Origin: Falsiroseomonas frigidaquae
GTDB lineage: Bacteria; Pseudomonadota; Alphaproteobacteria; Acetobacterales; Acetobacteraceae
Length of the DNA stretch: 64,000 nucleotides
Assembly: GCF_012163145.1 (NCBI RefSeq)
Contig: NZ_JAAVTX010000002.1
Location: 310,001-374,000 of the forward strand
Reading direction: 5' to 3'
A program made the position numbers and the translations under genes. The stretch's first letter is position 1; every line of letters starts with the position of its first letter. The notes beneath the pieces were generated by a model, which saw only the letters and a list, made by a program, of their open reading frames with translations, made no database searches and had not been told where the DNA came from. Of the stretch, positions 4,808 through 39,350 are shown piece by piece.

Positions 4808-4822
4808 CGCCGCTCCCGTGGA

Positions 4823-18072: not shown

Positions 18073-18121
18073 ACGGTCGCCCGAGGGCTGCCTGCCGGTC
18101 GCTACATAACCGGCTGGGACT

Positions 18122-18319: not shown

Positions 18320-18584
18320 GCGGGATCCCTGGAAGTTGGCGAGATAAAGATCTCTGCGCCATTATTCGGCCACGATCCACCCACGAAAAAGCGAGTTCGC
18401 GCCCGGATCCATCCGGCTTGGCCGCGGAGGCAACTGCCACGGTAGGAAGCAGTGCGGCCAGGGCTTTGGGCATTCCGGTGATGCCGGCGCAGCAAGACAT
18501 GCGCCGCGCACCCTGAAACCGGCTGGACCGCCGCCCAACCGCGGTGGAGGATGCGCCCCGACAGGCAAATGGGGATCCTTTGCG

Positions 18585-19808
18585 ATGGCTGGCTTCACCT
18601 TTTCCCGCCGCAGCGCGCTCGCGGCTGGCACCGGCATCCTGGCGGGGCTGCGCCCCGGCCACGCCCCGGCCCAGGGCGCCCCCATCAAGGTGGGGGAGCT
18701 GAATTCCTACGCCCGCATGGCCGCCTTCGCGATGCCCTACCGCAACGCCATCCAGCTGGCGGTGGACCAGATCAACCAGGCCGGCGGCGTAATGGGCGGG
18801 CGACCGCTGGAATTCGTCTTCCGCGACGACGGCTCCACCCCCGGCGACGCGGTGCGCGTGGCGGAGGACCTGCTGACGCGCGAAGGCTGCGCCTTCCTGG
18901 CTGGCACCTTCCTGTCCAATGTCGGCCTGGCGGTGTCCGACCTCGCGAACCAGCGCAAGAAGCTGTTCCTGGCGACGGAGCCGCTGACCGATGCGCTGAC
19001 CATGGCGCAGGGCAATCGCTACACCTGGCGCCTGCGCCCCGGCACCTACATGCAGACGCGCATGGTGGTGGAGGCCGCGCGCGGCAAGACGGCGAAGCGC
19101 TGGGCGATCGTGGCGCCGAACTACGAATACGGCCAATCCGCCGCCGCCAACTTCAAGAAGCTGATCGGCTCCGCCATCCCGGGCGCCGAGATCGTGGCGG
19201 AGCAATACCCGGCGCTCGGCCGTGTGGACGCCGGCGCCACGGTGGGCGCGCTGGCGCAGGCGCGGCCGGACGGTATCTTCAACGTGCTGTTCGGACCGGA
19301 CCTGACCGCCTTCGTGCGGGAGGGCAATACCCGCGGGCTGTTCGAGCGTCGCCTGGTGCTGTCGCTGCTGACCGGCGAGCCGGAATACATGCTGCCGCTG
19401 GGCGATGAATGCCCGGATGGCTGGATCGTCACCGGCTACCCCTGGGAACAGGTGCAGGACGCCCCGCACAAGGCCTTCATCGAGGCCTATCGCGCCCGCT
19501 TCAACGACACGCCGCGCAAGGGCAGCGTGCTCGGCTATGTCACCGCGCAGGTGGTGGCCAGCATGCTGAACAAGGCGAATTCGACGGAGACGGAGGCGAT
19601 GGTGGATGCGCTGGCCGACCTGCCGACGCAGACCATCGTCGGCAATGTCACCATGCGCGCGCTGGACCACCAGGGCACCATGGGCACCTGGGTGGGGGAG
19701 ACGGTGCTGCGCGGCCGTACCGGCACCATGCGCAATGCGCGCTACGCCGATGGCGCCAACTACCTGTTCCCCGAGGACGAGGTGCGCGCCGCGCGCCCGC
19801 GGAGCTGA
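18585..19808 (+). CDS. ABC transporter substrate-binding protein, branched-chain amino acid/amide type
   Basis: The 407-residue protein starts with a twin-arginine-like signal (FSRRSALAAGTGILAGL) and an AQG cleavage region, placing it in the periplasm. The mature part is a type-1 periplasmic binding fold of the LivK/AmiC/urea-binding kind: KVGELNSYARMAAF, YRNAIQLAVDQINQAGGVMG and the PNYEYGQSAAANFKKL segment are typical. It captures a small amide, amino acid or related solute and hands it to the fused permease encoded 9 bp downstream. It is the first gene of an eleven-gene operon; the 265 bp upstream shows no confident promoter. Confidence 0.88.
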   Translation: MAGFTFSRRSALAAGTGILAGLRPGHAPAQGAPIKVGELNSYARMAAFAMPYRNAIQLAVDQINQAGGVMGGRPLEFVFRDDGSTPGDAVRVAEDLLTREGCAFLAGTFLSNVGLAVSDLANQRKKLFLATEPLTDALTMAQGNRYTWRLRPGTYMQTRMVVEAARGKTAKRWAIVAPNYEYGQSAAANFKKLIGSAIPGAEIVAEQYPALGRVDAGATVGALAQARPDGIFNVLFGPDLTAFVREGNTRGLFERRLVLSLLTGEPEYMLPLGDECPDGWIVTGYPWEQVQDAPHKAFIEAYRARFNDTPRKGSVLGYVTAQVVASMLNKANSTETEAMVDALADLPTQTIVGNVTMRALDHQGTMGTWVGETVLRGRTGTMRNARYADGANYLFPEDEVRAARPRS

Positions 19809-19817
19809 CCGCGGCGC

Positions 19818-21671
19818 ATGGATTTCGGATTCCTGGTGGTCCAGTCCCTTTCGGGACTGGCCAGCGCCTCCTCGCTTTTCGTCATCGCGTCGGGGCTGAC
19901 GCTGGTCTTCGGCGTCACCCGCATCGTCAATTTCGCGCATGGCAGCTTCTACATGCTCGGCGCCTATATGGCGGTGACGGTGGTGCCCTGGCTGCTGGAT
20001 TTCGACCGGTCGCCGCTGCTGTTCTTCACGGGGGTGCTGGTCTCGGCCGCCGTGGTGGGCGTGCTCGGCGTGGTGATGGAGGTTCTGCTGCTGCGGCGGC
20101 TCTACAAAGTACCAGAACTGTTCCAGCTGCTGGCCACATTCGGCGTGGTGCTGATGGTGCAGGATGCGGTGCTGTGGATCTGGGGGCCGGTGGAAATCCC
20201 CGGGCCGCGCGCGCCCGGCTTGCGCCATGGCGTGGAGATCCTCGGCCAGCGCTTCCCGGCCTATGAGCTGTTCCTGATCTGCGTCGGGCCGGCCGTGCTC
20301 GGCCTGCTGTGGCTGCTGATGCACAGGACGCGCTTCGGCATCCTGATCCGCGCGGCAACGCGGGACCGGGAGATGGTGGGGGCGCTCGGCGTGAACCAGG
20401 CGCTGCTGTTCACCGGCACTCTGTTCCTCGGCGCCTTCCTGGCGGGGCTGGGCGGCGCGCTGCAGATTCCGCGTGTCTCCGCGAATTCGCAGATGGACCT
20501 GTCGATCATCACGGAGGCTTTCGTCGTCACCGTGATCGGCGGCATGGGGTCCGTGCCCGGCGCCTTCCTGGCCGCGGTGATCATCGGGCAGTTGAATTCC
20601 TTCGGCGTGCTGATCTTCCCGAAGATCACGCTGGTGCTGGTCTTCCTGCTGATGGCGGTGGTGCTGGTGGTGAAGCCCTGGGGGCTGCTCGGCCGACCCG
20701 AACCGGCAGCGGGCCGCGCGGCGCTGCCGGAAGGCATCCTGGCCACCCCGCGCTTCGGGCTGTGGGAGAAGGTGATCCTGGCCGTGGTGCTGGCGGCGAC
20801 GCTCGCCGTGCCGGTCTTCGGCGACGCCTATACGGTGAAAGTGGCGACGGAGGTGCTGATCTTCGCGCTCGCCGCCTTCTCGCTGAATTTTCTCGTCGGC
20901 AATGGCGGCATCGTCTCCTTCGGCCATGCCGCCTATTTCGGCCTCGGCGCCTATGCGGCCGGGCTGCTGGTGACGAAGGGCGGCTTCGCGATGGAACCGG
21001 CGCTGATCGCCGCCCCGCTGGCCGGCGCCGCCTTCGCAGCGCTGTTCGGCTTCTTCGTAGTCCGGCTGACCGGCATCTACCTGGCGATGCTGACGCTGGC
21101 CTTTGCGCAGATCGCCTATGCGGTCTGCTTCCAATGGGTGGAGGTGACCGGCGGCGACAATGGCGTGGTCGGCGTCTGGCCCTCCGCCTGGGCGCGGTCG
21201 CGGGAGGTGTTTCATTATCTCGTCGCCGGCTGCTGCATCCTCGGCATCGCGGCGCTGCGGCACGTGATCTACGCGCCCTTCGGCGCCACGCTGCGGGCGG
21301 CACGGGATTCGGAACAGCGGGCGGATGCCATCGGCATTGATGTGCGGATGCATCGCTGGCTGGCCTTCACCCTGGCGGGCGCGGCGGCGGGGCTGGCGGG
21401 CGGGCTCTATGCCTTCTCCAAGGGCTCGATCGACCCGACGCTGCTGGCGATCCCGATGTCCATCGACTTCCTGGCGATGCTGCTGCTGGGCGGCATGCAG
21501 ACGGTGATGGGCGCGGTCGCCGGCGCCGCGGCCTTCCACACCATCAAGGACTTCTTCATGCCGCTGACGGACCATTGGCGGTTCTTCCTCGGCGCCTCCA
21601 TCATCGCCCTGGTGCTGATTTTTCCGCGCGGCCTGTCCGGTGCCTATGGCGCTCTGCGGAGGCGCGCATGA
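19818..21671 (+). CDS. Fused LivH-LivM ABC transporter permease
   Basis: One 617-residue chain contains both permease halves normally made as separate LivH and LivM proteins. Residues 1-290 are LivH-like (LTLVFGVTRIVNFAHGSFYMLGAYMAV and GGMGSVPGAFLAAVIIG motifs) and residues about 310-617 are LivM-like (NFLVGNGGIVSFGHAAYFGLGAY, ARDSEQRADAIGID, LLGGMQTVMGAVAGA). The linker is around residues 285-305 (GLLGRPEPAAGRAALPEG). Multiple membrane helices are evident in both halves. It forms the inner-membrane channel of the importer. Its TGA overlaps the following ATPase start. Confidence 0.9.
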   Translation: MDFGFLVVQSLSGLASASSLFVIASGLTLVFGVTRIVNFAHGSFYMLGAYMAVTVVPWLLDFDRSPLLFFTGVLVSAAVVGVLGVVMEVLLLRRLYKVPELFQLLATFGVVLMVQDAVLWIWGPVEIPGPRAPGLRHGVEILGQRFPAYELFLICVGPAVLGLLWLLMHRTRFGILIRAATRDREMVGALGVNQALLFTGTLFLGAFLAGLGGALQIPRVSANSQMDLSIITEAFVVTVIGGMGSVPGAFLAAVIIGQLNSFGVLIFPKITLVLVFLLMAVVLVVKPWGLLGRPEPAAGRAALPEGILATPRFGLWEKVILAVVLAATLAVPVFGDAYTVKVATEVLIFALAAFSLNFLVGNGGIVSFGHAAYFGLGAYAAGLLVTKGGFAMEPALIAAPLAGAAFAALFGFFVVRLTGIYLAMLTLAFAQIAYAVCFQWVEVTGGDNGVVGVWPSAWARSREVFHYLVAGCCILGIAALRHVIYAPFGATLRAARDSEQRADAIGIDVRMHRWLAFTLAGAAAGLAGGLYAFSKGSIDPTLLAIPMSIDFLAMLLLGGMQTVMGAVAGAAAFHTIKDFFMPLTDHWRFFLGASIIALVLIFPRGLSGAYGALRRRA

Positions 21672-22450
21672 CGCTGCTGGCGGCGGAGGGGCTGAACAAG
21701 CGCTTCGGCGGCGTCGTCGCGGCGAAGGACGTCTCCTTCGCCCTGGCGGCGGGCGAGATGCTGGCGATCATCGGCCCGAATGGCGCCGGCAAATCCACCA
21801 CCTTCAACATGGTGGGCGGGCAGTTGGCGCCGAGCTCCGGCCGCGTGCTGCTGGCGGGCCGGGACATCACCGGCCTGCCGCCGCGCGAGGTGTGCCGGCT
21901 CGGCGTCGGCCGCACCTTCCAGGTGGCGCAGACTTTTCTTTCGATGTCGGTCGCCGGCAATGTGCAGATGGCGCTGATCGCGCATCACGGCCGCACGCGG
22001 GATGTGGTGGCGGATGCGGCGTCGCTCTATCGGGCGGAGGCGCTGGCCCTGCTGGCGCAGGTCGGCATGGCGGAGGCGGCGGACCGTCCGATCGGGGAGC
22101 TGGCCTATGGCGATGTGAAGCGCGTGGAGCTCGCCATCGCGCTCGCCGCCGCACCGAAACTGCTACTGATGGATGAGCCCACCGCCGGCATGGCGCCGCG
22201 CGAACGCGCCGCGCTGATGCAACTCACGGCCGGCATCGCGCGTGGAAAAGGCATCGGCGTGCTGTTCACGGAGCACGACATGGACGCGGTCTTCGCCCAT
22301 GCCGACCGCATCCTGGTGCTGGTCCGCGGCGAGGTGATCGCGGAGGGTTCTCCTGAATCAGTTCGTGCCAATCCCGAGGTGCAGCGCGTCTATCTCGGCC
22401 AGTCCGGCCACAAGGCGGCGCTGCGGGCGCGGCGAGGCGCGCATGGCTGA
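21668..22450 (+). CDS. ABC transporter ATP-binding protein, LivG type
   Basis: The ATG at 21668 overlaps the permease stop by 4 bp and gives 260 residues. Walker A is GPNGAGKSTT, Walker B is KLLLMDEPTAGM, and the H-loop is LFTEHDMD. The signature is the LivG-type variant ELAYGDVKRVELAIALA instead of LSGGQ, which is normal for this subfamily. It energises uptake together with the LivF-type partner that follows with an 8 bp overlap. Confidence 0.92.
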   Translation: MTLLAAEGLNKRFGGVVAAKDVSFALAAGEMLAIIGPNGAGKSTTFNMVGGQLAPSSGRVLLAGRDITGLPPREVCRLGVGRTFQVAQTFLSMSVAGNVQMALIAHHGRTRDVVADAASLYRAEALALLAQVGMAEAADRPIGELAYGDVKRVELAIALAAAPKLLLMDEPTAGMAPRERAALMQLTAGIARGKGIGVLFTEHDMDAVFAHADRILVLVRGEVIAEGSPESVRANPEVQRVYLGQSGHKAALRARRGAHG

Positions 22451-23156
22451 GGCCGTTCTCGAGGTTTCGGGCGTGACCGCCGGCTATGGCCCGGCGGAGG
22501 TGCTGTTCGGCGTGGACCTCACGCTGGAACGCGGCGAGGTGGCGGCGCTGATGGGCCGTAACGGCGCCGGCAAATCCACCACCATGAAGGCCATCATGGG
22601 CATGCTGCCGCCCCGCGCCGGCCAGGTGCGCTTCGCCGGCCAGGACATCACCGGCTGGGCCCCGTACCGGATCGCGCGCGCCGGCCTCGGCTATGTGCCG
22701 GAGGACCGGCGCATTTTTACGGATCTCACCGTGGCGGAAAATCTGGAAGTCGGCCGCCGCCCCGCGCAGGGCGCGCGCGCCGCCTGGACCGTCGAGCGTC
22801 TGTACGAAATCTTCCCAAACCTGGCCGAGATGCGTGGACGGCGTGCTGCCGCCATGTCGGGCGGAGAGCAGCAGATGCTGACCATAGCCCGCACGCTGAT
22901 GGGCAACCCCGAAGCCGTGCTGCTCGACGAACCCTCGGAGGGCCTGGCGCCGGTGATCGTGGAGCTGATGGCGGAGGCCGTGCTGCGCATGAAGGCGGAG
23001 GGGCTGGCCGTGCTTCTCTCCGAACAGAGCCTGGATTTCGCCGCCGCCGTCTCCGACCGCGCCTATGTCATCGAGAAGGGCAGCATCCGCTTCGCCGGCA
23101 CCATGGCGGCGCTGGAAGCCGACGACCATATCCGCACCACCTATCTGACGGTCTGA
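22443..23156 (+). CDS. ABC transporter ATP-binding protein, LivF type
   Basis: The ATG at 22443 overlaps the previous gene by 8 bp and gives 237 residues. Walker A is GRNGAGKSTT, the signature is AAMSGGEQQMLTIARTL, Walker B is EAVLLDEPSEGLAP, and VPEDRRIFTDLTVAENL is the classic LivF loop. It is the second nucleotide-binding subunit of the importer. The hydantoinase A gene begins 3 bp after its stop, tying transport to catabolism. Confidence 0.92.
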   Translation: MAEAVLEVSGVTAGYGPAEVLFGVDLTLERGEVAALMGRNGAGKSTTMKAIMGMLPPRAGQVRFAGQDITGWAPYRIARAGLGYVPEDRRIFTDLTVAENLEVGRRPAQGARAAWTVERLYEIFPNLAEMRGRRAAAMSGGEQQMLTIARTLMGNPEAVLLDEPSEGLAPVIVELMAEAVLRMKAEGLAVLLSEQSLDFAAAVSDRAYVIEKGSIRFAGTMAALEADDHIRTTYLTV

Positions 23157-23159
23157 CGC

Positions 23160-25190
23160 ATGTCCCGCATCACGGCCGGCATCGATGTCGGCGGCACCTT
23201 CACGGACCTGCTGCTGCAGGACGCCGATGGCCGCGTGCGGCTCGCCAAGGTGCCGACCACCACCGCGAACCAGGCGGATGGCGTGCTGGCGGCGATCGCG
23301 GCAGCAGGCAGTTCCCCGGCCGCGCTCGACCTCATCATCCACGGCACCACCGCGACGACCAATGCCGTGCTGGAGCGCAAGCTTGCCAAGGTCGGGCTGA
23401 TCACCACCGCGGGCTTCCGGGACGTGCTGGAGCTCGGCCGCCGCACGCGCCCGAATCCCTATGGGCTGAAGGGCACATTCGAACCGCTGGTACCGCGCGA
23501 ATGGCGCCGCGAAGTGGCGGAGCGGATGGATGCGCGCGGCGCCGTGGTGATACCGCTGGACGAGGATGCGGTGGCGCGCGAGGTGCGCGCACTGCTGGCC
23601 GAGGGCTGCGAGGCGCTCGTCGTGCATTTCCTGCACGCCTATGCCAACCCGGCGCATGAACGGCGCGCCGGAGAGATCGCGCGCAGCCTCTGGCCGAACG
23701 ACTACGTCACGCTGGGCCACGAACTGCTCTCGGAATTCCGCGAATACGAACGCGGCACCACGGCCGCGGTGAATGCCGCCGTGCAGCCGGTGCTGGACCG
23801 CTACATCACGCGGCTGCAATCGCAACTCGCCGCGCAGGGCCACCGGCGCGAGCTGCTGGTGATGAACGGCAATGGCGGCACCGTGCCCGCCAGGCTGGTG
23901 GCGCGGCAGGCGGCGAAGACCGTCATGTCCGGCCCCGCCTCCGGCGTCATGGCCGCGGCGGCGACGCTGGCCCAGAGCGGGCTGCGCAACGCCATCACCT
24001 ATGACATGGGCGGCACCTCCACCGATGTCGCGCTGATCGCGGGCGGCGTTCCGGAGGTTTCGGCGGAACTCTCCATCGCCTACGGCCTGCCGATCCACCT
24101 GCCGATGGTCGATGTGCGCACGGTCGGCGCCGGCGGCGGCTCCATCGCCGGCATCGACCGCGCCGGCATGTTTCGCGTCGGGCCGGAAAGCGCGGGCAGC
24201 CTGCCCGGGCCGATCTGCTTTGGCCGCGGCGGCACGCGGCCCACCATCACCGATGCGAACCTGGTGCTCGGCCGGCTCGACCCCGCGCGGCTGCTGGCGG
24301 TGCGCGACGCGGTGCCGATGGAGACGGTGCGCGCGGCCTTCGCAGCGCAGATTGGCGCCCCCCTCGGCATGAGCTTGGAACAGGCGGCGGAGGCGACGCT
24401 GCGGCTCGCCAATGTGCATATGAGCGGCGCCATCCGCATGGTCTCCCTCTCCCGCGGCCATGATCCGCGCGATTTCTGCCTGTTTGCCTTCGGCGGCGCC
24501 GGGCCGCTGCATGCGGTGGCGCTGGCGCGGGAGATCGGCATTCCGATGGTGCTGGTGCCCGCGCGGCCGGGCCTGACCAATGCGCTGGGCTGTCTGGTGG
24601 CGGATCTGCGGCAGGATGCGGTGAACACGCTGAATCGCGGCCTGGACGATATCTCCGCCGAGGAGATCACGCAGACGCTGGCGGCGCAGCGCGACCGCGC
24701 TTTGGCCGTCGTCACCGCCGATAGCGCGGAGGTCGAGCGGACCGATGTGCTGCACGCCGCGGATATGCAGTTCCGCGGCCAGACGCATCTGATCCGCGTC
24801 GCCCTGCCGCGCATCGACATGACCCGCGCCGAAATCCAGGCCGCCTTCGAGTCCGCCTACTTTGCCCGCTTCCAGGTCCAGCTTCCCGAAATCCGCGCAG
24901 TGCTGGTGAACCTGACCACCACCGTCATCGGCCGCCGCCGCGCCTTCCCCCTCTCCGCCCTGCTCGACCCCGCCGCGCGCGTGGGTGAGGCGCGGGTCGG
25001 GGAGCGCGATCTCTACGCCGAGGGCGCCTGGCACCGCGCCACCGTGTGGCAGCGGGAAAGGCTGGCGGGGGGCGCGCGCATCGCCGGCCCCGCCATCATC
25101 CAGCAGGCGGATGCGACGACGGTGCTGGAGCCGCGATCCGAAGCCGTGGTAGATGCCATCGGCAATCTCCGCATCACGGTGCAGCCATGA
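23160..25190 (+). CDS. hyuA: Hydantoinase/oxoprolinase family protein, A subunit
   Basis: The 676-residue protein is a full-length HyuA/OplA-type subunit with an acetate kinase/Hsp70-like ATPase fold: GIDVGGTFTD at residues 7-16, STAPIHGTTATTNA-like IHGTTATTNAVLERK, and the second phosphate motif YDMGGTSTDVALI near residue 280. In N-methylhydantoinases, 5-oxoprolinases and acetone carboxylases this subunit binds ATP and activates a cyclic amide or ketone. Its partner HyuB overlaps by 4 bp. In this operon it could open a lactam ring after reduction by the Hnr-like protein; the substrate is inference. Confidence 0.9.
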   Translation: MSRITAGIDVGGTFTDLLLQDADGRVRLAKVPTTTANQADGVLAAIAAAGSSPAALDLIIHGTTATTNAVLERKLAKVGLITTAGFRDVLELGRRTRPNPYGLKGTFEPLVPREWRREVAERMDARGAVVIPLDEDAVAREVRALLAEGCEALVVHFLHAYANPAHERRAGEIARSLWPNDYVTLGHELLSEFREYERGTTAAVNAAVQPVLDRYITRLQSQLAAQGHRRELLVMNGNGGTVPARLVARQAAKTVMSGPASGVMAAAATLAQSGLRNAITYDMGGTSTDVALIAGGVPEVSAELSIAYGLPIHLPMVDVRTVGAGGGSIAGIDRAGMFRVGPESAGSLPGPICFGRGGTRPTITDANLVLGRLDPARLLAVRDAVPMETVRAAFAAQIGAPLGMSLEQAAEATLRLANVHMSGAIRMVSLSRGHDPRDFCLFAFGGAGPLHAVALAREIGIPMVLVPARPGLTNALGCLVADLRQDAVNTLNRGLDDISAEEITQTLAAQRDRALAVVTADSAEVERTDVLHAADMQFRGQTHLIRVALPRIDMTRAEIQAAFESAYFARFQVQLPEIRAVLVNLTTTVIGRRRAFPLSALLDPAARVGEARVGERDLYAEGAWHRATVWQRERLAGGARIAGPAIIQQADATTVLEPRSEAVVDAIGNLRITVQP

Positions 25191-26860
25191 TCGATGCCCT
25201 GACGCTCGCCGTGATCCAGGCCGGGTTGCAGCAGGTCTGCAACGAGATGGACATCACCTTCTCCCGCGCTGCCTTCTCGCCGGTGATTGCGGAAGCCGAT
25301 GACCGCTCGGACGGCATCTATGCGGCGGAGGATGGCGCCCTGATCGCACAGGGCGAACTCGGCCTGCCGGTCTTTGTCGGCACCATGGCGCATTCCGCCG
25401 CGCATCTGGTGCGGCTGATCGGCGAGGGCGCGGTGGCGGCACCGGAGCCGGGCGACATCTACATCGTCAACGACCCCTATCTCGGCGGCACGCATCTGAT
25501 GGATGTGCGCTTCTGCCGGCCCTTCTTCGTGGAGGGCGAGCTGTTCTGCTGGCTGCAGAACACCGGCCACTGGCCGGATATCGGCGGCATGGTGCCCGGC
25601 GGCTTCTCCGCGCATGCGACGGAAGTCGAACAGGAAGGCCTGCGCCTGCCGCCCGTGAAACTGTTCAAGAAGGGCGTGCTGGACCGGGAAATCCTGTCGA
25701 TCATCCAGTCCAATATCCGCGTCGCGGACCAGCGCATCGGCGACATCAAGGCGCAGGCGGCGGCGCTGCTGGTGGGTGAGGCGCGGCTTTCCGAAATGGT
25801 GTCGCGATATGGCCTGGCGACACTGCGCGAGGCCATCGCCGGCATCCGCGCACGCGCCGCGGAACGCATGCTGGCCGAGATCCGGCGCATCCCCGATGGC
25901 GTCTATGTTTCGGAAACTTTCGTGGATTCGGATGGCGTGGTGGATGCGCCGCTGCGCATCGCGCTGACCGTCACGCGCCAGGGCGATGAGCTGGTCTTCG
26001 ATCTGGGTGATTCCTCGCCGCCCTGCCAGGGGCCGATGAATTCCGTCTGGGCCACCACCTGTTCCGCCGTCTATCTCGCGATGAAGCACATCTTCCCCGA
26101 TGTGCCGATCAATGCCGGCACCTTCGCGCCGCTGCGCGTGATCCGGCCGGAGGGCACCTTCCTCGATGCGCGCTATCCGCGCCCGGTCTCCGGCTGTGCG
26201 GCGGAGGTCTCGCAGCGGATTGCGGAGGCGGTGTTCCTCGCCGTCGCGCAGGCGCTGCCGGCGGAGGTCTGGGCGGCGCCTGCCGGCACCTCCGGCAATT
26301 TCGCGCTCGGCGGCTTCGATCCGGCGCGCAAGGCCGGCTATGTGATGTACCAGATCACCGGCGGCGGCTATGGCGGCACTGCCGAAGCCGATGGCCTGAC
26401 CAATGGCTGCTCCACCATCGGCATCAGCAAGACTGCGCCGGTGGAGGTGATGGAACAGTACTACCCCGTCCTGTTCAGGCGTTTCGCGATCCATGAGGGC
26501 TCCGGCGGCGCCGGCGCGCAGCGCGGCGGCTTCGGCGTGCATTACGAGGTGGAGCTGCTGCGCGGCGAGGCCAAGGCCAGCTTCGTAATGGACCACGGCC
26601 GCTTCGGCCCGCCCGGCGTGCTCGGCGGCGGCGAGGGCGGGAAAAACATCGTAAAACTGCACCGCAATGGCAGCACCACCATCCCGCTGCATCTGTCGAA
26701 GGACCAGGGTTTGCAACTGCGCGCGGGCGACCGGGTGGAGGTGATGACGCCGGGCGGCGGTGGCTATGGAAATCCGCGCGACCGCGACCCGGCGCTGGTC
26801 GCGCGGGATGTGCGGCGCGGCTACTACACGCCGGATCAGGCGAAGGCGCTGTGGGGATGA
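25187..26860 (+). CDS. hyuB: Hydantoinase B/oxoprolinase family protein, B subunit
   Basis: The ATG at 25187 (ATGA overlap with hyuA) gives 557 residues, the usual length. Conserved HyuB features are the N-terminal LTLAVIQAGLQQVCNEMDITF, NDPYLGGTHLMDVRF, QNTGHWPDIGGMVPGG, FAPLRVIRPEGTFLDARYPRPVSG and the C-terminal MTPGGGGYGNPRDRDP. HyuB binds the cyclic substrate and completes hydrolysis with HyuA-generated phosphorylated intermediate. The gene is coupled by ATGA overlap to the downstream FAD subunit. Confidence 0.92.
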   Translation: MIDALTLAVIQAGLQQVCNEMDITFSRAAFSPVIAEADDRSDGIYAAEDGALIAQGELGLPVFVGTMAHSAAHLVRLIGEGAVAAPEPGDIYIVNDPYLGGTHLMDVRFCRPFFVEGELFCWLQNTGHWPDIGGMVPGGFSAHATEVEQEGLRLPPVKLFKKGVLDREILSIIQSNIRVADQRIGDIKAQAAALLVGEARLSEMVSRYGLATLREAIAGIRARAAERMLAEIRRIPDGVYVSETFVDSDGVVDAPLRIALTVTRQGDELVFDLGDSSPPCQGPMNSVWATTCSAVYLAMKHIFPDVPINAGTFAPLRVIRPEGTFLDARYPRPVSGCAAEVSQRIAEAVFLAVAQALPAEVWAAPAGTSGNFALGGFDPARKAGYVMYQITGGGYGGTAEADGLTNGCSTIGISKTAPVEVMEQYYPVLFRRFAIHEGSGGAGAQRGGFGVHYEVELLRGEAKASFVMDHGRFGPPGVLGGGEGGKNIVKLHRNGSTTIPLHLSKDQGLQLRAGDRVEVMTPGGGGYGNPRDRDPALVARDVRRGYYTPDQAKALWG

Positions 26861-27699
26861 TCGCCTATCATCGCCCCACCACCCTGGCCGACGCGCTGAC
26901 CATCCGCGCGGCCTTCGAGGTTGCGGTGCTGGCCGGCGGCACGGATGTCTTCCCCGCCCGCACGGCGCGCGCCGCCTGGGGCGACCCGACGCACAAGGAT
27001 GTGCTCGACCTCAGCGCCATTCCCGACCTGCGCGACATCGAGGAGACCGCGGAGGGCTGGCGCATCGGCTGCCTGGTCACCTGGTCCGCGCTGATCGCGG
27101 CCAGGCTTCCGCCGATCTTCGAAGGGTTGAAGGCGGCCGCGCGCGAAGTCGGCGGGCGGCAGGTGCAGAATCGCGCGACGCTGGTGGGCAACCTGGTTAC
27201 GGCCTCGCCGGCCGGCGATGGCATCCCGAACCTGCTGGCCCTGGATGCCTCGGTGGAAATCGCGGGGCCGCGCGGCACGCGGCGGCTGCCGGCGGCGGCA
27301 TTCCTCACCGGCTATCGCGCCACGGCACTGGCGGCAGATGAGCTGGTGCTGGCGCTGCATGTGCCGCGGCTGGAAGGCGCGCAGGGCGGCTTCCGCAAGC
27401 TGGGCGCGCGGCACTATCTGGTGATCTCCATCGCCATGGCGGCCGGCGTGATCGCGACTGATGGGGCGGGACGCATCACCACGGCGCGCATCGCGCTCGG
27501 CGCCTGTTCGGCGGTGGCGCAGCGGCTGCCGGGGCTGGAGGCGGCGCTGCTCAGCGCGCCGCGTGCGGAGGCTGCACGCCTGGTGCGGAAGCAGCATCTG
27601 GAATCGCTGAGCCCGATCGACGACATCCGCGCCAGCGCCGCCTATCGCCGCGACGCCGCGCTGGTGCTGTTGCAGGACCTGCTGGAGGCGCGCGCATGA
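26857..27699 (+). CDS. FAD-binding subunit of a xanthine dehydrogenase-family molybdenum hydroxylase
   Basis: The ATG at 26857 overlaps the hyuB stop; a GTG at 26851 would add two residues. The 280-residue product matches CoxM/XdhB-type flavin subunits: the FAD motif AVLAGGTDVFP (the usual AGGTD), then the second motif REVGGRQVQNRATLVGNLVTASPAGD, and a C-terminal CO-dehydrogenase flavoprotein domain. It passes electrons from the iron-sulfur domain of the next protein to an acceptor. The following gene overlaps by 4 bp. Confidence 0.92.
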   Translation: MIAYHRPTTLADALTIRAAFEVAVLAGGTDVFPARTARAAWGDPTHKDVLDLSAIPDLRDIEETAEGWRIGCLVTWSALIAARLPPIFEGLKAAAREVGGRQVQNRATLVGNLVTASPAGDGIPNLLALDASVEIAGPRGTRRLPAAAFLTGYRATALAADELVLALHVPRLEGAQGGFRKLGARHYLVISIAMAAGVIATDGAGRITTARIALGACSAVAQRLPGLEAALLSAPRAEAARLVRKQHLESLSPIDDIRASAAYRRDAALVLLQDLLEARA

Positions 27700-30383
27700 T
27701 CGAGATCGCCTTCACCCTGAACGACAGCCCCTGCACCGTCTCCGCGCCGCCCTTCGCGCCGCTGTCGGATACGCTGCGCGAAAGGCTCGGCCTGACCGGC
27801 ACGAAGGAGGGCTGCAATGCCGGCGATTGCGGCGCCTGCACCGTGCTGGTGGATGGCGCCCAGGCCTGCGCCTGCCTGATCCCCTCCGCCCAGGCGGAGG
27901 GCGCGCGGGTGGAGACGGTGGAGGCGGTTCACGGCGAGTTGGGCGCCGTGCTGGCACGGCTGCGCGCCGCCTTCCTGGCACATGGCGCGGCGCAATGCGG
28001 CATCTGCTCGCCGGGCATGCTGATGGCGGCGGCGGATCTGCTGCTGCGCGACGCGGCGCCGGATCGCGCGGCGGTGCGGGACGCGCTGGGCGGCGTGCTC
28101 TGCCGCTGCACCGGCTATGCGAAGATCCTGGACGCCGTGCTGGATGCGGCACCGCGGGCCGTGGCGTCCCCGCCGGCGGGCGAGGCGGTCGGCGCCGGCA
28201 TCGCGCGGCTGGATGGCGTGGCGAAGCTGGACGGCACGGATCGCTTCGGCGCGGATGAGGCGCCGGCCGATGCGCTGTGGCTGCGCGTGGTACGATCGCC
28301 GCATGCCAGCGCGCGTTTTTCCCTCGGCGATCTGGAAGCCGCACGGCGGGAGCTGGGGCTGGAGGCCATCCTCACCGCCGCCGATGTACCGGGCGTGAAC
28401 GGCTTCGGCATCATGCCGAATCTGAAGGACCAGCCCGTGCTGGCCGATGGCCTGGTGCGCTTCCGGGGCGAGGCGGTGCTCGGCCTGGTGGGCAGTCGGG
28501 AGGCCGTGATGGCCGTGCGCGATGCGGCGCTGCCGCTCACCTGGCACCCCCTGCCCGCGCTGCATGGCGCCGCCGCCGCCAGCGCGGTGGATGCACCGCA
28601 GCTGCACGCGCATGCGCCCGGCAATCTGCTGATCGAGGGCAAGCTGAATCGCGGCACGCCGCTACGCGATGTCGCTTATTCGGAAGGCCGCTTCACCACC
28701 GGCTTCGTCGAGCACGCCTATATCGAACCCGAGGCCGGCTACGCGCAGCCCGCACCGGACGGCATCGGCATGGAGGTCTTCGCCTGCACCCAGGCGCCCT
28801 ATATGGACCGCGAGGAAACCGCGCGCGTGCTCGGCGTGGCGGAGGAGGCGGTGCGCATCCGGCCCAGCGCCTGCGGTGGTGGTTTTGGCGGCAAGCTGGA
28901 TGTCTCGGTGCAGCCGCTGCTGGCGGTGGCCGCGCGCAAGCTGGGCCGGCCGGTGCGCATCGTCTATTCCCGCGCCGAAAGCATGGCCAGCACCACCAAA
29001 CGCCACCCGGCCAGCATCACCGCGCGCATGTCGGCCGATGCGGAGGGGCGCTTCACCAGCTACGAATTTGACGCGGATTTCAACACCGGCGCCTATGCGA
29101 GCTGGGGCGCCACGGTCGCCAATCGCGTGCCCGTGCATGCCGGCGGTCCCTACCGCATCCCGAACCTCCGCAACCGCGCGCGTGCCATCTACACCAACGA
29201 CACGCCCGCCGGCGCCTTTCGTGGCTTCGGTGTGCCGCAGGCGGCGATCGCGACGGAATCGCTGGTGGATGATCTGGCGGAACAGCTCGGCCTGGATCGC
29301 TGGGAAATCCGGCGCCGCAATGCCATCGGCCGCGGCGACACGACGCATAGCGGCCAGGTGCTGCATGCCTCGGCCGGGCTGCCGGAATGCCTGGATGCGC
29401 TGAAGCCGGAATGGGATGCGATGCTGGCGCAGGTCGCGGCGCATAATGCGACGGCACCGCGCGTGAAGCTCGGCGCCGGCATTGCCTGCATGTGGTATGG
29501 CTGCGGCAATACCAGCATGTCCAACCCGTCCCGCATGAAGCTCACCCTTGCACGCGATGGCACGCTGACCTTGTTCAACGGCGCGGTCGATATCGGCCAG
29601 GGCAGCACCACCGTCATGGCCCAGATCTGCGCCGATGCGCTGGGGCTGCCGCTGGAAAACTTTCGCTTCGTGCTGGGCGATACGGCGCGCACCTACGACG
29701 CGGGCAAGACCAGCGCCTCCCGCCAGACCTTTGTCAGTGGCCGCGCGGCGATGGAGACCGGGCTGGCGCTGCGGCGGCGGATTCTTGCGCTGGCCAATGC
29801 GGGGGAGGATGCGGCGCTGGCGCTGGAGGGCACGCAGCTGCGTGTCGGCAGCGCGCGGGTGATCGACCTGGCGACGCTCGACGCAGACCTCGAAGCCGAA
29901 GGCCGCTACGACCCGCCGACGACGGCGCTCGACGAGAATGGCCAGGGTACGCCCTACGCCACCTATGGCTTCGCCGCGCAGATCGCGCTGGTCGCGGTGG
30001 ATACCGCGCTCGGCACCGTGAAGGTGCGGCGCATCGTCGCCGCGCAGGATGTCGGGCGCGCGGTGAATCCCACGCTGGTGCTCGGCCAGATCCATGGCGG
30101 CATCGCACAAGGCCTCGGCCTGGCGCTGATGGAGGAATTTCTGCCAGGCCGCACGGAAAACCTGCACGACTACCTGATCCCGACCGTGGGCGACGTGCCG
30201 GAGATCGAGGTGCATCTGATCGAGGACCCGGAGCCCGAAGGCCCCTATGGTGCCAAGGGTGTTGGTGAGCCGGCGCTGGTGCCGACCGCGCCGGCCATCC
30301 TCTCCGCGATCCGCCACGCCACCGGCATCACCATGCGCCAGGTGCCCGTGCTGCCGCACCGCCTGTGGGAGCAGATGCGATGA
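27696..30383 (+). CDS. Fused [2Fe-2S]/molybdopterin hydroxylase subunit (xanthine dehydrogenase family)
   Basis: The 895-residue protein joins two subunits usually encoded separately. Residues 1-150 hold a plant-type [2Fe-2S] site (KEGCNAGDCGACTVLVDG...C) and a second [2Fe-2S] site (AQCGICSPGM...CRCTGY). From about residue 165 there is an aldehyde oxidase/xanthine dehydrogenase molybdenum domain with PSACGGGFGGKLDV, GAFRGFGVPQ, DIGQGSTTVMAQI and the catalytic-glutamate segment GAKGVGEPAL. Family members hydroxylate N-heterocycles or aldehydes using water. With the FAD subunit it makes a complete enzyme; nicotinate-, pyrimidine- or purine-like substrates are plausible. No dedicated maturation factor is in the window. 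Confidence 0.9.
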   Translation: MIEIAFTLNDSPCTVSAPPFAPLSDTLRERLGLTGTKEGCNAGDCGACTVLVDGAQACACLIPSAQAEGARVETVEAVHGELGAVLARLRAAFLAHGAAQCGICSPGMLMAAADLLLRDAAPDRAAVRDALGGVLCRCTGYAKILDAVLDAAPRAVASPPAGEAVGAGIARLDGVAKLDGTDRFGADEAPADALWLRVVRSPHASARFSLGDLEAARRELGLEAILTAADVPGVNGFGIMPNLKDQPVLADGLVRFRGEAVLGLVGSREAVMAVRDAALPLTWHPLPALHGAAAASAVDAPQLHAHAPGNLLIEGKLNRGTPLRDVAYSEGRFTTGFVEHAYIEPEAGYAQPAPDGIGMEVFACTQAPYMDREETARVLGVAEEAVRIRPSACGGGFGGKLDVSVQPLLAVAARKLGRPVRIVYSRAESMASTTKRHPASITARMSADAEGRFTSYEFDADFNTGAYASWGATVANRVPVHAGGPYRIPNLRNRARAIYTNDTPAGAFRGFGVPQAAIATESLVDDLAEQLGLDRWEIRRRNAIGRGDTTHSGQVLHASAGLPECLDALKPEWDAMLAQVAAHNATAPRVKLGAGIACMWYGCGNTSMSNPSRMKLTLARDGTLTLFNGAVDIGQGSTTVMAQICADALGLPLENFRFVLGDTARTYDAGKTSASRQTFVSGRAAMETGLALRRRILALANAGEDAALALEGTQLRVGSARVIDLATLDADLEAEGRYDPPTTALDENGQGTPYATYGFAAQIALVAVDTALGTVKVRRIVAAQDVGRAVNPTLVLGQIHGGIAQGLGLALMEEFLPGRTENLHDYLIPTVGDVPEIEVHLIEDPEPEGPYGAKGVGEPALVPTAPAILSAIRHATGITMRQVPVLPHRLWEQMR

Positions 30384-31876
30384 GCGACCATGGCAGCCTC
30401 GCCGCACGTTCCCAGAAATTCGGCGCGGCGGAGGGCGACCAGGGCATCGTGCGCTGCGATGCCTGCCCCGTGCTCTGCCGCATCCGCCCCGGCCGCAGCG
30501 GCGCCTGTTCGCGCTATGCCAATGACAATGGGCAGCTTGTCCGCACCGATCCGGCGGTGACGCTGGCGCGCGCCGTCGAAGCGGGTGGGCCTGTCGTCGC
30601 TTTCGCCGAGGGTGGATGGGACGGGCAGCTGCTCGATCCGTCGCGCGCCTTCGTCACCGGCATCGGCGCCGGCACCACCTATCCGGACTACAAGCCCGCC
30701 CCCTTCATCGTCGGCGCGCAGCATGCGGGGGTGGATACCGTCACCATCGTGACGGAGGGAATCTTCAGCTATTGCGGCGTGAAGGTGAAGATCGACACGG
30801 ACCGGCACCTGGGCGCCGAAGCCGCCGCCGTGCGCGCGAATGGCGAGCAGGTGGGCCATGTGACCACGGCCGAATATGGCAGCCAGATGCTCTCCCTCGG
30901 GGGCGTGCGGCATCTTACCGGCGGCAGCAAGAAGGAAGGCACCACCACCTGCGACACGCTGCTGAAGCTGTGTGCCGGCGAGGCGGTGGAGCTCACCATC
31001 GATGGCGGCCACGCCGTGCGCGTGCAGGCCGGCCAGGCGCCGTTGGTGGATGGCAAGGCGGAGGCGCGCATGCGCGTCGGCTGCGGCAGCGCCACCATCG
31101 GCATCTTCGCGCAGCAATGGCTTGGGCAGGTGGATGAGGTGATCGTGGTGGATGACCACATCACCGGCCTGCTCTCCGAACACCAGGCGGGCAAGGTGCT
31201 GGGCATGCAGCCCACCGGCATCCGCCTGCGCGGGCGGCGCTCCACGCCCGGGCGCTATTTCCAGGTGGCGAATCCGGGCCTCGGCTGGGGCGGGACGGAT
31301 ATCAGCGACCCGCTTTCCATCATCGAGAGCATCGACCCCAAGACCGCCTGGCCCGGCCTGCGCCTGCTGCTGACCTCCACCACCGGCGAGGATGCGCTGT
31401 GGTGCGTGCTGGATGATGCGCTGCGCCCGGTGCCGGCAGAGATGCCGCCCGGCGTCGCCAAGGTGGTGGAGCGGATCGGGGAGAATTGCGAACCCTCGCT
31501 CTGCAGCGTCATCTTCATGGCGGGCGCCGGTGGGTCGCTGCGCGCGGGCGTCACGGAGAATCCCGTGCTGCTGACGCGCAGCGTGGCCTCCGGCGAGACG
31601 CGCGTGACGATGGGCGGCGCGCCCGTCTATCTCTGGCCCGGCGGCGGCATCACGGTGATGGCGGATGTGCTGCGCTTGCCGAAGAACGCGTTCGGCTATG
31701 TGCCGACGCCGGCCCTGGTCGCGCCCATCGAATTCACCCTGCCGCGTGCGCTGTATGAGCGCCTCGGCGGGCATGTTTCGGAAATCGTGCCGGTGCAGGA
31801 TCTGCTGCGCGATCTCGGCCCCGCCTTGCGCATCGAAGACTGGCAGGCGGGCAATCCCTGGCCCTTCGCCGGCTGA
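30380..31876 (+). CDS. 6-hydroxynicotinate reductase-like iron-sulfur protein
   Basis: From the ATG at 30380 (ATGA overlap) the product is 498 residues. The N-terminus has a four-cysteine cluster motif, CDACPVLCRIRPGRSGAC (C-x2-C-x3-C-x9-C), suited to an iron-sulfur centre; more cysteines occur in FSYCGVK, CDTLLKLCAG and MRVGCGS. I associate the whole-length pattern with proteins annotated as 6-hydroxynicotinate reductase, the enzyme of Eubacterium barkeri nicotinate fermentation that carries covalent flavin and Fe-S clusters. That recognition is from memory, not alignment. The UPF0280 gene follows after 1 bp. A role in reducing a hydroxylated N-heterocycle is the favoured inference. Confidence 0.65.
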   Translation: MSDHGSLAARSQKFGAAEGDQGIVRCDACPVLCRIRPGRSGACSRYANDNGQLVRTDPAVTLARAVEAGGPVVAFAEGGWDGQLLDPSRAFVTGIGAGTTYPDYKPAPFIVGAQHAGVDTVTIVTEGIFSYCGVKVKIDTDRHLGAEAAAVRANGEQVGHVTTAEYGSQMLSLGGVRHLTGGSKKEGTTTCDTLLKLCAGEAVELTIDGGHAVRVQAGQAPLVDGKAEARMRVGCGSATIGIFAQQWLGQVDEVIVVDDHITGLLSEHQAGKVLGMQPTGIRLRGRRSTPGRYFQVANPGLGWGGTDISDPLSIIESIDPKTAWPGLRLLLTSTTGEDALWCVLDDALRPVPAEMPPGVAKVVERIGENCEPSLCSVIFMAGAGGSLRAGVTENPVLLTRSVASGETRVTMGGAPVYLWPGGGITVMADVLRLPKNAFGYVPTPALVAPIEFTLPRALYERLGGHVSEIVPVQDLLRDLGPALRIEDWQAGNPWPFAG

Positions 31877-31877
31877 G

Positions 31878-32729
31878 ATGCCGCAGGTGCAGCGCCTGAC
31901 GCAGGACCGGCTGCATCTGCAGCACGGCCCCATCGATGTGGTGCTGCGCGCCTGGGGGCCGCCCGCCTCCGTCGCCGCGGCGGAGGCGGCGGCGGTCGCG
32001 CGGTTCGATCGCGTGCTGCCCGACCTCGTCGCCGAATTGCCGCTGCTGCGCCGCGCGGCCGATCCCGCCGCGCCACCGCAGGGCGAGATCGCGCGGGCGA
32101 TGCATGCCGCCTGCCTGCCCTATGCCGCGCGCGGGTTTTTCGTCACGCCGATGGCGGCCGTCGCCGGCGCGGTGGCGGATGCGCTGCTGGCGGCCATGCG
32201 CGCCGCCGCGCCGGACCTGGCGCGCGCCTTCGTCAATGATGGCGGGGATATCGCCGTGCTGCCCGGCGACGGGCTGGATATCGGCCTGGCGGTGGACCCG
32301 CGCGGCGGCTTCGATGGCGCGCTGCATCTGCGCGCGGCGGATGGCATCGGAGGCATCGCCACCTCCGGCCGGCATGGCCGGTCCTTCTCCCTCGGCATCG
32401 CCGATGCCGTCACCGTGCTGGCCGGCACGGCGGCCGCGGCGGATGTGGCGGCGACGCTGATCGCCAATGCGGTGGATGTGGCGAGCCCCGCCATCACCCG
32501 TCGCCCCGCCTCCGCGCTCGATCCCGACAGCGACCTGGGCGAGCGCCTGGTGACGGTGGCGGTCGGCCCGCTGACCCAGGCGGAGGTCGAGACCGCGCTG
32601 GACTCCGGCACGGCCTTCGCGAACACCTGCTGCCAGGCCGGGCTGATCCGTGCCGCCGCGCTGCGCCTCGGCGGCGGCATCCGCCTCGCCGGCGCCTCCT
32701 CCCTTCTGCTGAAGGCCCCAAGCCCATGA
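31878..32729 (+). CDS. UPF0280 family protein (ApbE-like fold)
   Basis: The ATG at 31878 gives 283 residues. Recognisable UPF0280 segments are the GPIDVVLRAWG opening, FFVTPMAAVAGAVADALLAAM, the NDGGDIAVLPGDG loop and GGIATSGRHGRSFSLGIADAVTVLA. The family is structurally related to ApbE, the FMN transferase that flavinylates proteins, but its own activity is not established. Position directly after the Hnr-like gene, and overlap with the next gene by 4 bp, suggest it serves that enzyme, perhaps in covalent flavin attachment. No signal peptide is present, unlike periplasmic ApbE. Confidence 0.82.
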   Translation: MPQVQRLTQDRLHLQHGPIDVVLRAWGPPASVAAAEAAAVARFDRVLPDLVAELPLLRRAADPAAPPQGEIARAMHAACLPYAARGFFVTPMAAVAGAVADALLAAMRAAAPDLARAFVNDGGDIAVLPGDGLDIGLAVDPRGGFDGALHLRAADGIGGIATSGRHGRSFSLGIADAVTVLAGTAAAADVAATLIANAVDVASPAITRRPASALDPDSDLGERLVTVAVGPLTQAEVETALDSGTAFANTCCQAGLIRAAALRLGGGIRLAGASSLLLKAPSP

Positions 32730-33313
32730 CCCAGACGCTCGACATCCGGAAGACCGTGCTCTGCGTGGAGGAGATCAACCACGATGGCGGCCCACGCCTC
32801 GCCACCCCTCTGCTCAAGGGCTGGTGCGCCGTGATCCTCCGCAACCCCTTCGCCGGGCGCCACGAGCCGGAGCTGATGTGGATGATGGAGGCGATGAAGC
32901 CGATCGGCCTGATGGTGGCGGAGAAGCTGCTCGCCGGCCTCGGCGGCGACTCCGCCAGGATCGAGGCCTACGGCAAGGGCGGCCTGGTCGGTGCGGCCGG
33001 GGAGTTGGAGCATGGCGCGCTGTGGCATGTCGCCGGCGGCTATGCGATGCGGGGGCTGCTGGGCCAGGCGCTGTCCATCGTGCCGTCGATGACCAAGGTC
33101 GGGCCGATGGGCGCCGTGCTGGACCTGCCGATCCACCACCGCAACGCCGCCTATGTCCGCAGCCATTTCGACGGCATCACCGCAACCGTGCCGGACGCGC
33201 CGCGGCCGGACGAAATCCTGTTCGCGCTGGCGATGACCACCGGCGGCCGCCCGCATGCCCGCGTCGGCGGGCTGGTGCAGGATGCGATCAGCGCCTGGGA
33301 CGGGCAGCGCTGA
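32726..33313 (+). CDS. AA_synth (DUF1185) family protein
   Basis: The 195-residue protein matches the amino acid synthesis family (Pfam AA_synth), with the typical [13 protein letters not shown] opening, [42 protein letters not shown] and the C-terminal [14 protein letters not shown]. The biochemical function of the family is not known; genomic context elsewhere links it to catabolic and hydantoinase-like genes. Here it is the last gene of the eleven-gene operon, overlapping the UPF0280 gene by 4 bp. Confidence 0.85.
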
Positions 33314-33389
33314 GAGGCAACCCGCCCCCGCATGCCGCGTCATTCGTGGCAGAATGTGGATCAGCAGGGTCCAGGCGAAGGAATTGACG

Positions 33390-34334
33390 ATGCAACTCCA
33401 CGGAATCCACCACCTGACCGCGGTCTCGGCCGATGCGCCGGGCAACCATGATTTCTACACCCGCATCCTCGGCATGCGGCTGGTGAAGAAGACGGTGAAT
33501 CAGGACGACGTCAGCGCCTATCACCTGTTCTACGCCGATGGCGCCGCCAGCCCGGGCACCGACCTCACCTTCTTCGACTGGCCGGTGGGGCCGGAACAGC
33601 GCGGCACGCATGCCATCACCGGCACGGCGCTGCGCGTCGCGGGGGACGGGACGCTCGCCTGGTGGGCGGCGCGCTTCGCGGAACATGGCGTGAAGCACGG
33701 CCAGGTGCATGAACTGGCGGGCCGCCAGGTGCTGGATTTCGAGGATCCGGAGGGCCAGCGCCTGACCCTGCTGGATGATGGCGGCACCGGCCCCTTCCAC
33801 CCCTGGGACCGCAGCACGGTGCCGGCCGAGCGGCAGATCCGCGGCCTCGGCCCCATCACCATCAGCGTGCCGGACCTCGGCCCCACCGCACTGTTCCTGA
33901 CGCATGTGATGGCGATGCGCCCGGCCGGCGAGCACGCCGCGCCGGATGATGCACGCAGCCGCATCCACATCTTCGAGATGGGCGAGGGCGGCCCGGCGGC
34001 GGAGCTGCATGTGCGGGTCGAACCCCACCTGCCGCAGGCCCAGCCGGGCGCCGGCGGCGTGCACCATGTCGCCTTCCGGGTGCGGGATGAGGAGTATGAG
34101 GGCTGGGTGGAGCGGCTGCAGCGCCTGCGCATCCCCTCCTCCGGCCCGGTCGATCGCTTCTACTTCCGCAGCCTCTACACGCGGGAGCCGAACGGCATCC
34201 TCTACGAGATCGCCACCGATGGCCCCGGCTTCGCGACCGATGAGCCGATGGAGAGCCTGGGCGAGCGCCTGGCCCTGCCGCCCTTCCTGGAGCCGCGCCG
34301 CGCCGAGATCGAGCGCGGGCTGAAGCCGCTATAG
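33390..34334 (+). CDS. Ring-cleaving dioxygenase of the VOC superfamily (MhqO-like)
   Basis: The ATG at 33390, preceded by aaggaattgacg, gives 314 residues made of two vicinal-oxygen-chelate modules. The first begins [20 protein letters not shown] and the second holds [19 protein letters not shown] and [14 protein letters not shown], giving the two histidines and the glutamate expected for metal binding. [10 protein letters not shown] and TFFDWP are typical of the hydroquinone/catechol dioxygenase group used in quinone detoxification. It begins 76 bp after the operon and may be separate. The exact aromatic substrate is unknown. Confidence 0.83.

Positions 34335-37595: not shown

Positions 37596-39350
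<1,755 letters not shown>

Follow-up and report, generated by a model that had tools for sequence, protein, structure and literature searches.

The question raised by a gene cluster of Falsiroseomonas frigidaquae is how the ring of a reduced nicotinate derivative could be opened in a bacterium in which no enamidase, the ring-opening enzyme of the nicotinate fermentation cluster of Eubacterium barkeri, is found. The cluster lies at positions 18585-33313 (plus strand) of a stretch of 64,000 nucleotides, here called the window (NCBI RefSeq assembly GCF_012163145.1, contig NZ_JAAVTX010000002.1, positions 310,001 to 374,000), in a genome of 6.08 Mb, 19 contigs and ≈ 70% G+C. The eleven co-directional, coupled genes announced in a preliminary description of this DNA are all present at these coordinates, with gaps of no more than 9 bp and 4-bp ATGA overlaps at 6 of the 10 junctions. 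The gene families named there were likewise borne out by Pfam and NCBIfam searches, except for the reductase, which had no match and whose likeness to the 6-hydroxynicotinate reductase Hnr emerged via the E. barkeri locus. The operon is no product of chance, since its gene set is met again next to the reductase among the other genomes that were compared. It is regarded here as probably a nicotinate operon of the reductive type, in which the enamidase would be replaced by HyuAB, a pair of the hydantoinase/oxoprolinase family.

The nicotinate locus of E. barkeri (L080) was found with the flavin adenine dinucleotide (FAD) subunit of the solved nicotinate dehydrogenase as bait. Its genes are arranged in the order Hnr, UPF0280, an open frame that we take to be 2-(hydroxymethyl)glutarate dehydrogenase, NdhF, NdhS, NdhL, NdhM, a further frame, enamidase and AA_synth. 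The PDB bait fixes the identity of NdhF; Hnr, UPF0280, AA_synth and the Ndh parts were recognized by their resemblance to the window proteins. Calling two of the frames Hnr and enamidase follows the E. barkeri literature, and PMC3511419 and PMC9304392 helped in this naming. The window reductase (30380-31876, plus strand) shares 39% identity with E. barkeri Hnr over residues 7-489; domain models returned nothing for it at E 0.001, sequence searches no convincing PDB match, and a profile search of the PDB no entry at E 10. Relatives of two further window proteins stand in L080, namely the UPF0280 protein directly after hnr (33% identity) and the AA_synth protein directly after enamidase (40%), and thus both families also occur in the cluster of a biochemically studied pathway. 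Together with the FAD, iron-sulfur (FeS) and molybdenum (Mo) parts of the hydroxylase, these relatives make up the likeness between the two clusters. On the other hand, E. barkeri has an enamidase where the window operon has HyuAB, and separate NdhS, NdhL and NdhM proteins where the window has its Mo and FeS portions fused in one chain; its Hnr carries an N-terminal 2[4Fe-4S] domain that is missing from the window reductase, and L080 shows no convincing match to the branched-chain-type ATP-binding cassette (ABC) importer of the window.

The relation between HyuAB and enamidase was followed through all genomes that carry the reductase. The reductase was found in 45 of 289 genomes of the class, or 44 without G182 (a 38-residue match), and in 35 of 398 genomes of the phylum, among which three short matches and four genomes already in the first set leave 28 new ones; in either search, scoring was limited to a few top candidates per genome. 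With cut-offs of at least 55% identity for the window type of HyuA and at least 44-45% identity to E. barkeri enamidase, the first 44 genomes divide into 26 with the HyuA type only, 17 with enamidase only, none with both and one with neither (G226, 70% complete). Under the same cut-offs the second set (n = 28) gave 12, 14, two and none, respectively, and the 72 genomes taken together 38, 31, two and one. The corresponding Fisher p values are 2.6e-11 for the first set, 6e-6 for the second and 7e-17 for the pooled genomes. Compared with E. barkeri enamidase, the amidohydrolases of these clusters show 45-48% identity, and 51% over one contig-cut piece. Among the 245 reductase-negative genomes of the class, window-type HyuA was present in three and enamidase in two, the best 4-6 candidates per genome having been scored in both searches. 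The host genome as a whole gave no enamidase match at E 1e-20, and a hidden enamidase paralogue was rejected on this ground.

Furthermore, neighborhoods of 9-20 kb around the reductase (26 kb for the window) were compared in 69 of the 72 genomes, G064, G071 and G087 being omitted owing to short contigs, and their genes were called by tblastn with fixed identity cut-offs. HyuA occurs in 22 of these neighborhoods and enamidase in 19, and none contains both. UPF0280 stands beside the reductase in 68/69, the single miss (L076) ending at a contig edge. The Mo subunit of the window type is found in 50 and the FAD subunit in 49; if a NicA-type subunit (14) is admitted in place of the Mo subunit, 64 of the 69 are accounted for. 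AA_synth at ≥ 45% identity is present in 42, and the same type of importer, judged by its substrate-binding protein, in 32 (window included). The comparison across genomes envisaged in the preliminary description has therefore been carried out, and reductase, UPF0280, AA_synth, Mo hydroxylase and HyuAB do cluster together. A tree of the reductases requires seven changes of ring-opening type, at least three of which are forced by well-supported branches; one member of family f104 has HyuAB and the other enamidase, and families f23 and f70 are mixed as well. The HyuA type and enamidase replace each other across genomes, much as the preliminary description had supposed for this one locus, and the pattern seems best explained by the exchange of one ring-opening enzyme for another.

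Several observations weigh against this reading. The cut-offs were set on the first 44 genomes after the gaps in identity had been seen (the next HyuA at 51%, the next enamidase at 41%), the Fisher p values overstate independence because relatives are not independent of one another, and the tree was built by a quick method with support values from the Shimodaira-Hasegawa-like approximate likelihood-ratio test (SH-aLRT) only. Among five phylogenetically independent pairs on well-supported branches, three differ in both traits, each time in the expected sense (one enzyme gained where the other is lost), which gives a sign-test p of 0.25, the number of such pairs being too small for significance. 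Two genomes of family f160 (G395, G462) carry both the HyuA type and enamidase, and if every enamidase match at E 1e-20 is counted, G064 (a fragment) and G104 have both as well. HyuA at 50-54% identity is found in five reductase-negative genomes, and window-type HyuAB lies beside a different Mo enzyme, with no reductase, in G114 (L131) and G217 (L132), where the lactam is possibly made by hydroxylation alone. A distance of at most 25 kb separates HyuA from the reductase in 24 of 40 genomes (same contig in 29) and enamidase from it in 26 of 33 (same contig in 27), so that linkage to the reductase is not universal for either enzyme. Five of the 69 neighborhoods (L040, L060, L064, L067, L098) show no recognizable Mo subunit or NicA. 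A NicR-like MarR gene, present in 47/69 neighborhoods, has no match in the window, and the host has no close NicR-like MarR regulator, the best matches in its genome reaching 25-29% identity only. Further cases outside the reductase genomes are G127 (74% complete), where HyuA adjoins the importer type of the operon and the remaining operon genes are probably missing through the assembly, G082 with enamidase alone and no reductase, and the reductase-negative G202 with an enamidase-like protein at 43% identity.

The two genomes with both ring-opening enzymes, as well as the HyuAB pairs without a reductase in G114 and G217, fit the view that HyuAB clusters degrade a different pyridine, for instance an N-methylated or substituted pyridinecarboxylate, and that HyuAB marks this change of substrate since enamidase could not open the reduced lactam. 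A Rieske oxygenase, with which demethylation or hydroxylation would be possible, in 8 of the 69 neighborhoods points in the same direction; seven of these eight, however, lie in enamidase-only genomes and only one (L078) in a HyuA-only genome. Against this view, reductases of both ring-opening types share 62-79% identity with the window protein (pieces included, but not three or four very short matches), and the two types are interleaved on the tree through its seven changes. The NicA-type subunit, too, belongs to enamidase genomes in 13 of 14 neighborhoods and to HyuAB in one (L099), and pocket motifs of the E. barkeri nicotinate dehydrogenase recur in 33-35 of 37 Mo sequences, as detailed below. 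A different pyridine as the substrate of the HyuAB clusters is thus judged unlikely in comparison with the replacement of enamidase in nicotinate breakdown.

What is known of the HyuAB family agrees with a role in lactam opening. HyuA (23160-25190, plus strand; Hydantoinase_A E 4e-87) is taken as the ATP-binding subunit and HyuB (25187-26860, plus strand; Hydantoinase_B E 9.8e-158) as the metal-binding hydrolytic subunit of a predicted ATP-dependent lactamase. Both subunits, as well as the ATP and metal-ligand motifs, are common to the window pair and to the caprolactamase CapAB, the 5-oxoprolinase OplAB and the N-methylhydantoinase HyuAB. In the HyuA proteins co-located with the reductase, the ATP motifs D[VI]GGTFTD and DMGGTS are found in 22/22 and 20/22 sequences, respectively, and in the co-located HyuB proteins GGTHLMD and HW[PR]D in 19/19 each. 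ATP and metal motifs of caprolactamase are described in PMC8453981, and the HyuB motifs were equated with its metal ligands by eye. The nearest NCBIfam model of HyuA is that of the caprolactamase alpha subunit, but with the caprolactamase models HyuA and HyuB score 499.4 and 303.7 bits against cut-offs of 1000 and 1000, that is, half or less; linkage to a pyridine reductase and a predicted unsaturated six-membered lactam as substrate set the window pair further apart. An oxoprolinase pair of the HyuAB family opens delta-valerolactam, according to PMC11033972.

AA_synth (DUF1185; 32726-33313, plus strand; PF06684 E 1.3e-63), for which we know of no activity, gives rise to a second alternative. 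HyuAB might act elsewhere, on a by-product lactam or in a nitrogen side reaction, and an unrecognized enzyme, perhaps AA_synth itself, might open the reduced ring. In many clusters AA_synth has enamidase or HyuAB close by, and the host has 16 HyuB (Hydantoinase_B) copies, a large set of genes for ATP-dependent lactamases or carboxylases, so that the family is versatile there. Since AA_synth also accompanies enamidase, both in E. barkeri and in many clusters, its presence gives no reason for the lack of enamidase, and HyuA shows the pattern complementary to enamidase; an action of HyuAB elsewhere is considered quite improbable. AA_synth may rather be linked in some way to the ring-opening step. 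Relatives of 37-38% identity stand directly before an enamidase-like gene in L129 (G060) and L134 (G202), with no reductase nearby, and structural matches are 3byq and 2qtp. Amino-acid metabolism was proposed with the first structures (PMC2954203), and the context suggested here, if correct, differs from it. Two adjacent AA_synth copies occur in several neighborhoods, for example L061, L069, L083 and L084, and where the second copy was compared with the window protein, identity was ≈ 40%.

The nature of the substrate can be approached through the hydroxylase. It comprises an NdhF-like FAD subunit (26857-27699, plus strand; FAD_binding_5 and CO_deh_flav_C), 29-31% identical to NdhF of two Eubacterium loci, and a fused [2Fe-2S]/molybdopterin protein (27696-30383, plus strand; Fer2, Fer2_2, MoCoBD_1, MoCoBD_2), 36-41% identical to E. 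barkeri NdhL, NdhM and NdhS and a predicted nicotinate 6-hydroxylase. The best NCBIfam models of this Mo protein are the Se-dependent xanthine dehydrogenase, aldehyde oxidoreductase and PucD/XdhA, all well below cut-off, and these would suit an operon that degrades a purine, a pyrimidine or another non-pyridine heterocycle via a xanthine-dehydrogenase-like Mo enzyme. The glutamate after GGGFGGK and the FGISFT stretch are the purine-contact residues of xanthine dehydrogenase. The Mo protein does not have them: GGGFGGK is followed by leucine, as in E. barkeri NdhL (GGGFGGKL), and WYGCGNT stands where xanthine dehydrogenase has its KFGISFT stretch, E. barkeri NdhM having WYGIGNT. Of the 37 Mo proteins in the first neighborhood set, 35 contain GGFG[GS]K[LI] and 33 contain WYGxGNT. 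Moreover, the scores of E. barkeri NdhL (232 bits) and NdhM (201 bits) together exceed the 396 bits of the highest-scoring single chain in the PDB, which is from an aldehyde oxidoreductase, and the partners reductase, UPF0280 and AA_synth point to nicotinate. As the pocket motifs are those of NdhL and NdhM, nicotinate or a near relative rather than a purine is indicated as substrate; xanthine and other purines were rejected on the same motifs, and a non-pyridine heterocycle as the substrate of the operon is very improbable.

Along these lines, a NicA-type subunit replaces the FAD/Mo pair in 14 of the 69 neighborhoods, in 12 of which a NicB-like subunit was also found at the cut-off used, the names NicA and NicB being taken from annotated plasmid records; L099 combines a NicA/NicB-type dehydrogenase with the reductase and HyuAB. 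In family f159, which is presumably Bradyrhizobium, enamidase is found in 9/9 and window-type HyuA in 0/9 genomes, and a NicA/NicB-type dehydrogenase takes the place of the FAD/Mo pair in 9/9. A Bradyrhizobiaceae strain with a homologous cluster grows on nicotinate and on 6-hydroxynicotinate as sole carbon source, as stated in PMC3511419. The gene set of L080, the 14/69 exchanges for NicA and the growth of this strain on nicotinate together support a narrowing of the predicted substrate to nicotinate or a very close relative. In the aerobic nicotinate cluster of Azorhizobium caulinodans and the Bradyrhizobiaceae (strain SG-6C), the ring-opening enzyme is left unnamed in PMC3511419, whose text contains no "enamid". 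According to this paper, 6-chloronicotinate enters the same pathway in strain SG-6C, and strains of the HyuAB type may matter for its breakdown. Two other leads were abandoned: homarine, since titles and opening lines of abstracts in the literature on homarine and an operon reveal no reductive route, and Ruegeria pomeroyi SPO0822-0827, for which a structure paper, a table entry and unrelated papers were found and no measured substrate.

The route put forward in the preliminary description, from import via hydroxylation and reduction to lactam opening, is supported by this genomic evidence, and every reaction in it is predicted from the observed gene content, homologies and complementary distribution. 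The branched-chain-type ABC importer would take up the substrate, and the FAD subunit with the fused FeS/Mo enzyme would hydroxylate nicotinate at C6, as suggested by the pocket motifs. The Hnr homologue would, by homology, convert 6-hydroxynicotinate to 1,4,5,6-tetrahydro-6-oxonicotinate (THON). HyuA could then phosphorylate the lactam oxygen of THON with ATP, and the metal site of HyuB could hydrolyze the activated ring, the resulting enamine giving ammonia and 2-formylglutarate, and then presumably glutarate. UPF0280 is probably a maturation factor of the reductase and perhaps attaches its flavin, and AA_synth may assist at or just after ring opening. If this is correct, UPF0280, AA_synth and one "hydantoinase" clade would gain a function, or at any rate a pathway, in the proteobacterial turnover of vitamin B3, and a single step would be served by two unrelated, largely exclusive enzymes, an ATP-free metal amidohydrolase and an ATP-burning lactamase. 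The reductive nicotinate pathway as such is known from E. barkeri and from Azorhizobium/Bradyrhizobiaceae, but its HyuAB variant was not found in searches of the open-licence literature, in which nicotinate, hydantoinase and 6-hydroxynicotin- did not occur together. Among the papers listed by a broader search, only a transcriptome study on fungal nicotine breakdown or response (PMC6346535) combines the two kinds of term, and its 5-oxoprolinase belongs to glutathione metabolism.

The possible role of UPF0280 (31878-32729, plus strand; 328 bits with PRK04334.1-2, cut-off 290) deserves closer attention. E. barkeri Hnr is reported to have a covalently bound flavin (Alhapel 2006). A comparison of UPF0280 with the flavin transferase ApbE by hhalign reached 94.8% (E 5e-8), and none of four control pairs exceeded 0.7%; the ApbE side was made of pieces from 11 of 12 ApbE loci, and a single ApbE sequence alone gave 77.8%. 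The Pfam model ApbE (PF02424) matches 17 of 37 UPF0280 proteins at E ≤ 5, the best at 7.1e-7, the window protein not being among them. On these grounds UPF0280 is placed in the superfamily of ApbE flavin transferases. Among solved structures 2o34 alone is a significant relative; it was found in the PDB with a 37-row UPF0280 profile while ApbE was not listed at E 10; a 3-row profile placed ApbE at E 0.07. A structural model built from three rows only (mean predicted local distance difference test score, pLDDT, 49.9) was not used as evidence; with this low-confidence model Foldseek put 2o34 first (E 3.3e-3, nothing at E 0.001) and ApbE at rank 35 (E 4.4). ApbE and UPF0280 have the GGD, SG and ADxxAT regions in common, GGD being found in 67/68 and ADx[AC]AT in 68/68 UPF0280 proteins. 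In contrast, HIxxPxxG, the pattern of the ApbE catalytic histidine, occurs in none of the 68, and this missing histidine argues against the mechanism of ApbE.

The full ApbE target motif D-x-x-[ST]-G-A-[ST] is likewise absent from all 70 reductases, the short form [ST]GA[ST] being present in four, which neither shows nor excludes another site of flavin attachment. Canonical ApbE is absent from the host and 18 others of 41 reductase-positive genomes. Because of the likeness to ApbE, the flavin reported for Hnr and the absence of canonical ApbE, flavinylation of the reductase by UPF0280 is an attractive but unproven idea and a fair hypothesis, for which the operon opens a direct test. The more far-reaching combination, in which HyuAB would open THON at the expense of ATP and would have supplanted enamidase several times among aerobic nicotinate degraders (or been supplanted by it), and in which UPF0280 would represent a new class of cytosolic flavin transferase that serves the reductase alone, without the ApbE histidine and with a target site unlike the ApbE motif, is put forward as a tentative proposal. 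In the main texts of a review on ApbE (PMC12052999) and a survey of flavinylation (PMC8238504), neither UPF0280 nor nicotinate is mentioned, and searches of the open-licence literature found no mention of UPF0280.

As to the electron supply of the reductase, the extra N-terminal domain of E. barkeri Hnr holds two CxxCxxCxxxC motifs. Fer4 models match 2 of 23 aligned reductases, and as both are from Eubacterium, the window type is taken to be without the ferredoxin domain. Four cysteines (C26, C29, C33, C43) are kept in 40 of 41 aligned rows. A ferredoxin-NADP reductase gene accompanies the reductase in 11 of the 69 neighborhoods and 2-oxoacid:ferredoxin oxidoreductase genes in four, and these enzymes are plausible electron sources; neither had a match in the window at the limits used. 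Copies of the reductase are plasmid-borne in Rhizobium, Sulfitobacter and Methylobacterium, and in L077 (G028) and L125 (G475) the match falls into two separate pieces, by an assembly error or in a broken gene. A conserved protein of ≈ 460-500 residues occurs in the reductase clusters L043, L056, L061, L069, L082 and L085; the copy in L056 matches neither Pfam nor NCBIfam models and by eye resembles a multi-pass membrane protein.

The operon begins with the periplasmic substrate-binding protein of the branched-chain-type (HAAT) importer (18585-19808; Peripla_BP_6 E 3.4e-60), followed after 9 bp by a fused LivH-LivM-like permease (19818-21671) with two BPD_transp_2 stretches and UrtB-like and UrtC-like halves. 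The LivG-like ATPase (21668-22450; ABC_tran and BCA_ABC_TP_C) starts within the ATGA overlap at 21668-21671, and the LivF-like ATPase (22443-23156; ABC_tran) overlaps it by 8 bp, all four genes being on the plus strand. HyuA follows after 3 bp. ATGA overlaps join HyuA to HyuB, HyuB to the FAD subunit, the latter to the Mo protein, the Mo protein to the reductase, and UPF0280 to AA_synth, a 1-bp gap lying between reductase and UPF0280; start codons of the operon genes were picked from these overlaps. A sigma-70 promoter scan of 18000-33700 returned no site, 70% G+C making such a scan uninformative, and no riboswitch was found at the operon at the Rfam gathering score.

The only Rfam matches of the window are two tandem glycine riboswitch aptamers at 4818-5047 on the plus strand (59.5 and 48.6 bits). 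A 15/45-bp tandem repeat at 12998-13129, which encodes APQAG/EPQAG, lies within the minus-strand frame 12278-13972, judged by eye to be a putative Kdo-transferase gene. Further tandem arrays are found at 35560-35626 (14 bp) and 37594-37698 (26 bp), and a 28-bp repeat occurs in five copies with 95% matches at 53893-54033.

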